From: Sphingomonas sp. Root710
Lineage (GTDB): Bacteria > Pseudomonadota > Alphaproteobacteria > Sphingomonadales > Sphingomonadaceae
Direction of reading: 5' to 3'
NCBI RefSeq assembly: GCF_001429065.1
Contig: NZ_LMIB01000001.1
Coordinates: forward strand, 629,933 to 693,932
Length of the DNA: 64,000 nucleotides
In this document: in pieces, positions 37,981 through 56,957 of the stretch
Layout of the letters: every line of letters begins with the position of its first letter
Numbering within the stretch: position 1 is the stretch's first letter
Made by a program: the position numbers and the translations under genes
The notes under the pieces: generated by a model
Told to the model about the DNA's origin: nothing
Databases searched by the model: none
What the model saw: the letters and a program-made list of their open reading frames with translations, nothing else

Positions 37981-38409
37981 ATGGCAATGGCCGCAAGTAC
38001 GACCGAAGGCGAGCCCATGATGGACATCAACACCACGCCGTTGATCGACGTGATGCTGGTGCTTCTGATCATGTTCATCATCACCATTCCGATCCAGACT
38101 CACGCGGTGAAGCTCGACCTTCCGGTCGACTCGGGTGACAACACCCCGCCGCCGGTCGATCCGGTGAAGAACAAGGTCGTGATCACGCCCGGTGGTGAGA
38201 TCCTCTGGAATGGTTCGCCGATCTCGAAAGTCCAGCTGCGTCAGTATCTGGACATCACCCAGACGATGAACCCGATTCCCGAGCTGCATCTGCAGCCCGA
38301 TCCGCAGGCGCGGTATGTGCTGGTCGACGAAGTGCTCGCGATCACCAAGCGCGCGCAGGTCGAGAAGATGGGCTTCGTCGGCAACGAGGCTTATGGTGGC
38401 GCCTTCTAA
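37981..38409 (+). CDS. exbD: ExbD biopolymer transport protein, copy 2
   Basis: A 142-residue ExbD paralogue. It has the same MMDINTTPLIDVMLVLLIMFIITIPI membrane core with the conserved Asp and a shorter periplasmic domain. Two ExbD copies behind one ExbB is the arrangement known from Xanthomonas, where the second copy is needed only for some uptake or virulence functions. It ends the operon, 25 bases before a strong terminator. Confidence 0.95.
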   Translation: MAMAASTTEGEPMMDINTTPLIDVMLVLLIMFIITIPIQTHAVKLDLPVDSGDNTPPPVDPVKNKVVITPGGEILWNGSPISKVQLRQYLDITQTMNPIPELHLQPDPQARYVLVDEVLAITKRAQVEKMGFVGNEAYGGAF

Positions 38410-38433
38410 GGCGTTTCCCTCCGTCTGAATCAG

Positions 38434-38467
38434 AAAGGGCGGCCTCTCGGGGCCGCCCTTTTTGTTT
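38434..38467. terminator. intrinsic terminator after exbD copy 2
   Basis: An 11-base-pair stem, AAAGGGCGGCC and GGCCGCCCTTT, closes on a short TCTCGG loop and is followed by TTTTGTTTG. It can also end the convergent PfkB-kinase transcript. Confidence 0.9.
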
Positions 38468-38488
38468 GTCCGGTGGCTGGTCAGGGTC

Positions 38489-54279: not shown

Positions 54280-54354
54280 TGGTGGGCGTGGCAAGGATTG
54301 AACTTGCGACCCCTGCGATGTCAACACAGTGCTCTACCACTGAGCTACACGCCC
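54280..54354 (-). tRNA. tRNA-Val (GAC anticodon)
   Basis: Read on the minus strand, the 72-base cloverleaf starts GGGCGTG and ends CACGCCCA, and a CCA end is encoded. Acceptor 7 base pairs, D-arm GCTCAGTGGTAGAGC, anticodon stem CTGTG/CGCAG with loop TTGACAT (anticodon GAC, valine), T-arm with TTCAATC. It is convergent with tgt, whose terminator it almost touches. Confidence 0.97.
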
Positions 54355-54788: not shown

Positions 54789-54945
54789 AGCCCTTGATCG
54801 CATCCCCCAACCGGCCTCGTGCCGGTGAAGCATGCTCCATTATGCGACAACCACTTAACAAATTCCAGCATGGAACGCAGAATTTGCGCCAGTCCGCCGG
54901 TCGCCGCGGTTGCGCGCTGACAAGCGCGGACCTAGCAATCGGGTA

Positions 54946-55806
54946 ATGACTGCCGAAGCCGCTTTCTCGATGCTGGGCCCCGCGACACCGCAATCGCCGG
55001 TGCTGCTCGCGGTGCCGCATGCCGGACGAAGCTATGCGCCCGACCTGGTCGCAGCGGCGCGGGTACCGATCGAGCGGCTGCGCGCGCTGGAGGATCGGCA
55101 CGCCGACCGGCTGGTCGAACAGGCGGTGGCCGGGGGTGCGACGGCCATCGTCGCCCGCACCGCCCGCGCGGCGATCGATCTCAACCGCGATCCGCGCGAG
55201 ATCGACCCCGCCATGATCGAGGACCGGGGCAGCGCTGAAGGCCTGGTGCTGAGCGGCAAGGTCCGCGCGGGGCTGGGCTTGTTTCCACGCCGTCTGCCGT
55301 CATGCGGCGAACTGTGGCGCACGCGGATGACGATGGCCGAGGCCGAACGCCGCATCGCCGTGGCGCATGTGCCCTATCATCGCGCAATCGCCGAGCGGCT
55401 GGAGGTCACCAGGGCGCTGTTCGGGGCGGCGGTGCTGATCGATTGCCATTCGATGCCGCCGCTGCCGGTGCGGCAGGCCGGCGGGCCGGTGCGGATCGTG
55501 GTCGGTGACAGGTTCGGGGCGGGCGCAGCTTCATCAGTGGTCGATGTCGCCATGGCGGTGATCGAAGGTGCGGGGCTGCGTGTCGCGCGAAACCATCCCT
55601 ATGCCGGCGGCTACACGATCGATCGGCATGGACGCCCGCGCAAGCAGGTGCATGCAATCCAGATAGAATATGACCGGTCGCTTTACCTGGATGCGAGTCT
55701 CGATGCTCCGGCGAGCAATCTTGACGGGTGTGCGCGCCTGCTGGCGCTGATTGTCGACAAAATCGCCGGATTGTTCGAGTCGAGTCTGCCGGTCGCAGCC
55801 GAATGA
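54946..55806 (+). CDS. N-formylglutamate amidohydrolase
   Basis: A 286-residue zinc-dependent N-formylglutamate deformylase-like protein. VPHAGRSYAPDL, IDLNRDPREIDP and DCHSMPPLP carry the metal- and substrate-binding residues, and HPYAGGYTIDRHG with HAIQIEYDRSLYLD close it. It may act in histidine degradation or as a general formyl-amino-acid hydrolase; no hut genes are close. The ATG at 54946 is chosen; TTG at 54910 adds 12 residues. The last 374 bases to SapC carry no coding gene. Confidence 0.9.
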   Translation: MTAEAAFSMLGPATPQSPVLLAVPHAGRSYAPDLVAAARVPIERLRALEDRHADRLVEQAVAGGATAIVARTARAAIDLNRDPREIDPAMIEDRGSAEGLVLSGKVRAGLGLFPRRLPSCGELWRTRMTMAEAERRIAVAHVPYHRAIAERLEVTRALFGAAVLIDCHSMPPLPVRQAGGPVRIVVGDRFGAGAASSVVDVAMAVIEGAGLRVARNHPYAGGYTIDRHGRPRKQVHAIQIEYDRSLYLDASLDAPASNLDGCARLLALIVDKIAGLFESSLPVAAE

Positions 55807-56180
55807 GCAGGTGGATGCGCGGGCAGACGACGCCCCTTTACGTAAAGGGATGGCTTCTTCCCCAGCCGTGATGGCCTTTGGTGAAGGCGCACACGGCATT
55901 ATTGCGTATACGAAACAAGGCCGGATGAAGCACGGCAAATGGCGGTGGAAACTGCTAAGTCGTTATACTCAAAAAAGAACCACCCCGTGCTTTCGCACGA
56001 GGTGGCCAAGGTTCAGGGAGGAACGCATCCCGGAGGATGCGCCGTACGAGGCCGCGAAAGGGGGGCACGACCGCCGTACACATGCAAGATAGGGGGGTTC
56101 ACCGGGCGTTTCAAGGATAGTTCGCCCTCATTGGGGAAATTCCTTATCTCGCCGGGTATTTAGGCGCTATTCCGGGCCTC
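55807..56180. other. 374-base gap without a credible protein gene
   Basis: The gap lies between two convergent genes. Short frames exist (for example 55939-56163) but show no conserved composition or ribosome-binding site. The middle third forms several hairpins and is proposed as an RNA gene (next entry). Around 55860-55960 it is AT-rich for this genome and holds TATACT at 55964-55969. The right third, 56100-56180, shows only a weak GGGCG/CGCCC hairpin. Confidence 0.7.
55971..56125 (+). ncRNA. candidate structured small RNA
   Basis: Just after TATACT (55964-55969) comes an 11-base-pair hairpin, 55980-55990 with 55995-56005, one C-A mismatch and a TTTC loop. A second hairpin, 56024-56030 with 56035-56041, has 7 perfect pairs and a CGGA loop. 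GGA triplets lie in the linker (CAGGGAGGAAC) and in the second loop. Extent is approximate and no clear T tract follows; a GGGCG/CGCCC hairpin lies near 56104-56127. The sequence matches no RNA family that I can name. Strand + is favoured by the -10-like box. Confidence 0.45.
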
Positions 56181-56957
56181 TCAGGCGGTGAGCGGCGGGT
56201 TCGGCGCCGGCGTCTTGCCCTGCTGCATCTGCATAGCGAACACGTCGCGAATCAACGACAGCGAGAAGAGATGCGCATGAATCAGCGGCAAGAGGCCGCT
56301 CTGGACCATCTTGCGCAGAACGTCGCCGCGCAGTTCCTTGAGCTTTTCCTCCGAAACGATCTGGAAGCCGCGATAGACGAAGGGCTGGTCAGCGCCTTCC
56401 GGTTCGATCGTCACTTCGCCATCGATCAGCAGCTTGTTCTGGATCAGCTCCTCCATGAACATGCCGGTGCGCATGCCGGCCTGTTCGAACTGCTCGCAGA
56501 AGCCCAGCGTGTTCTTGATCGCGTCGGAAGGCTCGCTGCCCTCGAACAGCGGGGCACCGTCCTCGAACTCGCCGATCACGCCCGAGCTGCTGTCGAAGCA
56601 GAGCGACAGATCATCGCTGTCGGGACGGAGCTTGGCGAGCATGAAAGGATAGCGGCGAACATAGGCCGGCACGTAGAGGTTGTTGGTCGGGATGCCATTT
56701 TCGTCGGTGAAGACGTTGACGCCCTCGTTCAGGCCGAACAGGCCGAGCGGCACCGGGTTCGGGCCTGCCGAGAAGACGATCGGGTAGTGGCGCTGCGCGA
56801 GGATGAACTCCTCAACCGTCAGCGGCACCGCATGCGCCTTGGCGAAAAAGGGCGCGGTTTCGAGGGTGCGGGCCTTCCAACCAGCGTGGAGCTGGCTCGA
56901 GAGCGGCTGCAGCTCATTGTAGAAAAGGGGCAGGGCGTTGGCCGGGGCGCTCGCCAT
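56181..56957 (-). CDS. SapC family protein
   Basis: A 258-residue SapC (PF07277) protein. It starts MASAPANALPLFYNELQPLSSQLHAGW and has FILAQRHYPIVFSAGP, the conserved core, then NLYVPAYVRRYPFML and LCFDSSSGVIGEF. In Campylobacter, SapC is named for the S-layer secretion locus, but in alphaproteobacteria its role is unproven. No other S-layer gene is near. There is no signal peptide. Confidence 0.9.
   Translation of the reverse strand: MASAPANALPLFYNELQPLSSQLHAGWKARTLETAPFFAKAHAVPLTVEEFILAQRHYPIVFSAGPNPVPLGLFGLNEGVNVFTDENGIPTNNLYVPAYVRRYPFMLAKLRPDSDDLSLCFDSSSGVIGEFEDGAPLFEGSEPSDAIKNTLGFCEQFEQAGMRTGMFMEELIQNKLLIDGEVTIEPEGADQPFVYRGFQIVSEEKLKELRGDVLRKMVQSGLLPLIHAHLFSLSLIRDVFAMQMQQGKTPAPNPPLTA

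Follow-up and report, generated by a model that had tools for sequence, protein, structure and literature searches.

The closest described systems are sRNAs of Alphaproteobacteria that pair with mRNAs, and what follows about them is taken from excerpts of the papers cited. SisA-D of Caulobacter crescentus are αR8 members with the sponge CrfA; SisA is found downstream of an FGase (N-formylglutamate amidohydrolase) gene, has the core UUUCCUCCCU, and with Hfq represses TonB-receptor mRNAs by pairing (PMC12559287). SuhB of Sphingopyxis granuli TFA is a 61-nt, Hfq-dependent repressor of thnR (PMC6563040). NfeR1 and the αr14 sRNAs form three hairpins, and their unpaired anti-Shine-Dalgarno stretches base-pair with mRNAs where translation starts (PMC10746234). 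In the excerpts, antisense pairing at translation starts is shown or inferred for relatives of the RNA that we describe here (PMC12559287, PMC7143759, PMC10746234, PMC6563040).

Layout of the locus

The window is the whole stretch of DNA that was analysed, 64,000 nucleotides in length. The gap under study (55807-56180) measures 374 bases from stop codon to stop codon, as the preliminary description had it. On one side is the FGase gene (54910-55806, plus strand; PF05013, E 1.4e-62), which is the convergent neighbour and serves as synteny anchor, and on the other a SapC-family gene (56181-56957, minus strand; PF07277, E 4.6e-61), which is upstream of the sRNA promoter and on the same strand. 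The earlier statement that the gap holds no credible protein also stands, as the two open reading frames tested across it have no Pfam match. The FGase gene is immediately preceded by a tRNA gene (54283-54354, minus strand). Of the 27 FGase loci from other orders, 21 contain a tRNA as well, and for that reason the whole block looks old.

In this gap we predict an sRNA of ~108 nt on the minus strand (56079-55972), with the 5’ end placed from the -10 box and the 3’ end from the terminator. All its parts are on the minus strand, in the order promoter, H1, H2, linker CCUCCCUGAACCUU, terminator, U-run. The promoter (56114-56086) has a -35 box TTGAAA at 56114-56109, a 17-base spacer and a -10 box TATCTT at 56091-56086. 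H1 (56079-56044) is a 5’ hairpin whose 13 pairs are interrupted by a single bulge; its 9-base loop, CCCCCCUUU, is at 56065-56057. H2 (56043-56022) is a hairpin of 9 pairs with loop UCCG. The linker (56021-56008) is unpaired in the fold, and the αr8-like core UUCCUCCCU (56023-56015), the presumed main seed of the predicted sRNA, joins its first bases to the final two of H2. H3 (56007-55972) is an intrinsic terminator, with a 13-pair stem (56007-55978, G-U counted) and a GAAA loop, followed by CUUUUU. Between 55700 and 56300, the TTGAAA/TATCTT pair is the single promoter-like site and H3 the single terminator-like site, both minus-strand, where shuffles average 0.2 promoter-like and 0.5 terminator-like sites. 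A covariance model has one strong match in this genome, at 125.6 bits, and the next best scores 24.3.

Synteny, conservation and relation to αr8

FGase was detected in 14/14 genomes of the genus and 194/199 of the family. We sampled 40 FGase loci, all 14 of the genus and then the best-scoring of the family, and found the RNA in 38, convergent with FGase in every case. The core was located by a motif script at most 1,400 bases downstream, and the covariance model, run on both strands, gave the same 38; neither found the RNA in L040 or L043. In two loci (L013 and L022) the RNA is more than 500 bases away from FGase, and one further FGase locus of the same family (L085) has no model match. Conversely, 25 of 28 further high-scoring loci of the family have FGase within 1.5 kb, all convergent. 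Of the 24 hits from the order’s other families, 13 likewise have FGase at that distance or less, again all convergent, and the remaining 11 have no FGase match within 1.5 kb. With stricter filters, 232 of the 296 genomes searched in the order have a match to R1, the model built in this analysis; R1 also finds RNAs in all 21 genomes of other families that we chose, each of them chosen because it had a match.

The 66 homologues compared below comprise the 38 RNAs of the FGase loci and 28 of the model’s top hits. Their mean column identity is 0.71 for the H1 stem, 0.58 for the H2 stem and 0.90 for the H3 stem (full stem range 0.578-0.899), and reaches 0.994 in the linker and 0.93 in the H1 loop. 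All 66 have CUCCCUGAACC, and all 66 have CCCC in the H1 loop. Such constant loops on drifting stems would resemble pairing seeds. The exact 28-base pattern of linker plus terminator recurs in at least 119 stretches, and among the matches listed it is found in sphingomonads and erythrobacters, with one titled Alphaproteobacteria only. The T-run on the minus strand is conserved among the relatives. A promoter pair scoring at least 9 of 12 is just upstream of the RNA in 66/66 homologues, compared to 2.7% for shuffled upstreams; the reference is the window’s own pair, so the window’s score of 12/12 is by construction.

This promoter bears on the possibility that the structure is an untranslated tail of sapC, whose transcript would either end at the hairpins and terminator or be cut to release the sRNA. 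The gene is indeed upstream on the same strand, and of the 40 FGase loci of genus and family, 34 have SapC. A sapC tail is nevertheless quite improbable, given that the promoter kept in all 66 homologues stands between sapC and the RNA, that the 24 loci of the order’s other families retain a related RNA and have no SapC match (0/24), and that the stems have changed far more than loop and linker, unlike in a plain terminator.

Rfam places the window RNA in αr8/mmgR/suhB (RF00519), on the minus strand, with 22.1 bits (E 0.045), under the gathering threshold of 41. The view that this is not a known RNA gives way here, as the RNA has this sub-threshold match and is tied to αr8 by position, orientation and sequence intermediates. 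Another Rfam match, to the ClpQY promoter (11.8 bits, E 8.4), was dismissed as chance. When six sphingomonad loci were rescanned, RF00519 was sub-threshold in three (32.3-33.6 bits) and had no match at E ≤ 0.5 in the other three (L009, L020 and L033). In the FGase loci of other orders (L086-L112), RF00519 is above threshold in 14/27 (47.7-74.8 bits), all convergent, and R1 matches the same 14 places with 15.6-38.7 bits; the other 13 have neither an RF00519 or R1 RNA nor UUCCUCCCU within 1,500 bases downstream. The αr8 10-mer UUUCCUCCCU is not exact in the window, which has GUUCCUCCCU, identical in 9/10 positions. The exact 10-mer occurs in 7 of the 66 homologues, in 22 of the 24 hits in the order’s other families, where it comes after an H2 of αr8 type, and in 14/14 in other orders. 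CCCC is in the apical loop of H1 in 3 of those 24 other-family hits by a crude fold (L134 was not parsed), and a C-rich H1 loop is uncommon in the order’s other families. With the 10-mer exact in 7/66 homologues and the CCCC loop in all of them, the sphingomonad form looks derived, judging by these sequences.

The window RNA has the αr8 layout (hairpin, unpaired C-rich core, intrinsic terminator) and the αr8 position next to the FGase gene. Because convergent, over-threshold RF00519 RNAs are found at 14/27 FGase loci of other orders, with R1 matching too, we read it as the sphingomonad form of the FGase-linked αr8. We do not file it as canonical αr8, since the Rfam threshold and the exact 10-mer were both tested and the RNA falls short of each. 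It is a variant, specific to this lineage, of the sRNA that accompanies FGase as αr8 (MmgR, SisA), and we are highly confident of its descent from that RNA. An unrelated new family, with a C-rich core and an FGase neighbourhood acquired by chance, would agree with the sub-threshold score and inexact 10-mer, with an H2 of different sequence and with the C-rich H1 loop. Such a coincidence has a very low probability in our judgement: 14 loci of other orders have over-threshold αr8 in the same place and orientation and with the same element order, R1 finds RNAs in 21/21 chosen genomes of other families, where 22 of 24 hits join the exact 10-mer to an αr8-type H2, and FGase adjoins 13 of those 24.

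The window has a second RF00519 match at 38394-38474 (plus strand; 39.3 bits, sub-threshold), with a fold z of -4.38. Its first hairpin holds an exbD stop codon, in an exbB-exbD-exbD cluster, and none of the other 13 aligned genomes of the genus has its CCCUCC core. We rejected it as a sibling RNA on account of this overlap with the end of exbD and of the core not being kept; it is probably an ordinary terminator resembling αr8 by chance. As this case makes clear, an RF00519 score of ~39 alone proves little, and the case for the sRNA next to FGase rests on synteny and covariation.

Covariation and strand

We compared the fold across homologues in alignments of two sorts. The model-fitted alignment of the 66 leans towards the structure, being fitted to the model and having 28 of its 66 rows picked by model score; in it, both sides change in 29 of the 35 pairs (13/13 in H1, 9/9 in H2, 7/13 in H3), with 421 double-change cells. 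There, 97.5% of cells are paired, compared to 78.2% when shuffled and 34.9-53.3% when slid, and covariation is 0.579, compared to 0.208 in shuffles and 0.054-0.150 when slid. In a sequence-only alignment of 22, double changes are found in 7/35 pairs, a number reached by 0/500 shuffles, and paired cells amount to 91.8%, compared to 37.4-49.4% when slid. The pair-type count of that alignment is not above shuffles (26 vs 27.6), and no pair of H2 changes there on both sides because H2 is misaligned by loop gaps. For a sequence-only alignment of 38, RNAalifold reports 26 pairs, comprising part of H1, H2 and H3, of which 15 have double changes. The compensating changes across sphingomonads that the preliminary description proposed to look for are thus found by all three comparisons.

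The minus-strand sequence at 56079-55972 folds with z -5.68, and 0/200 shuffles are as stable; for the plus strand at 55971-56125, z is -0.80 and 37/200 shuffles are as stable. A G-U cell in the alignment is a pair on the minus strand, and a C-A cell is a pair on the plus strand. The 66 homologues have 372 G-U cells vs 9 C-A cells, from which it follows that the RNA is on the minus strand, and the alignment of 22 has 128 vs 3. We are as good as certain that a real sRNA gene lies on the minus strand.

The structured small-RNA gene that the preliminary description placed between the convergent genes is therefore there, on the opposite strand. Both of the hairpins that it read on the plus strand are inverted repeats at those places: the one given a TTTC loop is the minus-strand terminator H3 with its GAAA loop, and the one given a CGGA loop is H2. 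The GGA triplets taken as exposed are complementary to CCU that is unpaired in the minus-strand RNA. The TATACT box does exist, at 55964-55969, just past the terminator tail of the minus-strand RNA, and its bases are not common to the relatives compared by sequence. A plus-strand sRNA starting from this box, which is 8 bases ahead of a repeat that like the other partly folds on the plus strand too, has next to no probability and was rejected for its poor fold, the lack of any plus-strand promoter- or terminator-like site in 55700-56300, the G-U against C-A counts, and a promoter and T-run that are conserved on the minus strand.

Predicted targets and comparison with known sRNAs

A free-standing gene on the minus strand would encode a trans-acting, base-pairing sRNA. 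Its unpaired UUCCUCCCUGAACC stretch would pair with purine-rich ribosome-binding sites and block translation, perhaps helped by the H1 loop, and probably on Hfq, as reported for relatives. By analogy with these relatives, antisense pairing at ribosome-binding sites is the likely mode of action. The best explanation overall, which we consider probable, is a form of the FGase-linked αr8 on the minus strand acting in trans; its computed part consists of the strand, the three-hairpin fold, the conservation of the promoter and of the unpaired C-rich stretches, and the position next to FGase. That TonB-dependent receptor genes are among the predicted targets would be a weaker inference, with about an even chance of being right.

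The receptor set derives from 90 Plug matches, of which the best-scoring 70 were used, with the 20 lowest-scoring left out, and 2 were dropped for having no start, which left 68. The controls are 215 genes called by script from the window and 20 stretches, in which any receptors were retained. A perfect 6-base match to either seed occurs in 39/68 receptor start regions vs 24/215 controls, and a 7-base match to the linker in 15/68 vs 4/215; a 6-base match to the 16S tail occurs in 2/68 vs 7/215. Matching the controls on 16S pairing reduces the excess without abolishing it (median p 0.01 for the linker and 0.009 for the H1 loop). The linker beats shuffles of its own letters (5/200), and the H1 loop is no better than its own (71/200). 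In the same 16S-matched test, the linker of L001, a likely sibling in the same genome, has p 0.00067. Against all 215 controls, a third C-rich linker, that of L004, which is probably not an sRNA, has 6-base matches in 17/68 vs 13/215. The TonB-receptor signal is not specific to the window copy. Given the p value of L001 and a loop no better than shuffles, we regard the receptors as a fair prediction for the αr8 siblings taken together. The receptor starts (L188-L257) are unusually G-rich, with AGGGG in 28/68 vs 13/215 control genes, and AAGGA is in 0/68 vs 20/215.

Across the 14 genus genomes, the complement of the linker precedes an ATG in 21 matches vs 1 for the reversed pattern, and that of the H1 loop in 32 rows (two sites are listed twice) vs 12; many of the matched ATGs open no convincing gene, and the reversed pattern, being no ribosome-binding site, makes a weak control. 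The H1-loop complement recurs before three TonB receptors, in G007 and G013. The MurJ genes of three genus genomes (L139, L143 and L144) start right after CAGGGAGGAA, a perfect complement of the linker, which was not seen at MurJ in the window’s genome.

A more speculative scenario, which we think doubtful, is that the sphingomonad FGase-linked αr8 fixed a second C-rich seed in the H1 loop and lengthened the linker seed, while the ribosome-binding sites of ~90 TonB receptors moved towards AGGGG/GGGAGG and away from the sequence that matches 16S rRNA best, such that one RNA family would set the whole outer-membrane uptake programme. The RNA is common in the order, as the R1 matches attest, yet the window copy scores too low for the Rfam threshold. 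Giving the RNA a name connects the carbon and nutrient circuits of SisA and MmgR with the sphingomonads, a group rich in TonB receptors and in pathways that degrade pollutants, and makes it possible to test directly whether an old sRNA acquired a second seed.

Our search of the open-access literature returned no paper on this sphingomonad RNA. The excerpt of PMC5107571 tabulates an sRNA of Paracoccus that has homologues among sphingomonads, several of which are listed, and going by that excerpt the table may be a prior notice of it.

Among the known systems, NfeR1/αr14 is similar to the window RNA in having three hairpins and unpaired anti-Shine-Dalgarno stretches. It differs in that all three αr14 loops carry CCUCCUCCC, which is absent from the window RNA and separates it from αr14/NfeR1. 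SuhB, as excerpted, is a sphingomonad sRNA bearing the name of the same Rfam family that the window RNA matches, and the ~108 nt predicted here from promoter and terminator do not match its 61 nt. In the same genome, RF00519 exceeds its threshold at three further places, where the core is AUCCUCUCCUAA (L001 1501-1577, L002 1501-1575, L003 1501-1577), and these copies are likely SuhB-type siblings; compared by size alone with the excerpted description, SuhB would fit these copies better than it fits the window RNA. SisA has the FGase link in common with the window RNA, whose core differs at one base. The closest correspondence is with αr8/MmgR of Sinorhizobium meliloti, which in the excerpts has the same FGase neighbourhood, convergent orientation and order of elements (PMC12559287, PMC7143759). 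With respect to MmgR, the window RNA has the core GUUCCUCCCU instead of UUUCCUCCCU, followed by an invariant GAACC, a predicted length of 108 nt rather than 77 nt, and an H1 with a C-rich loop.
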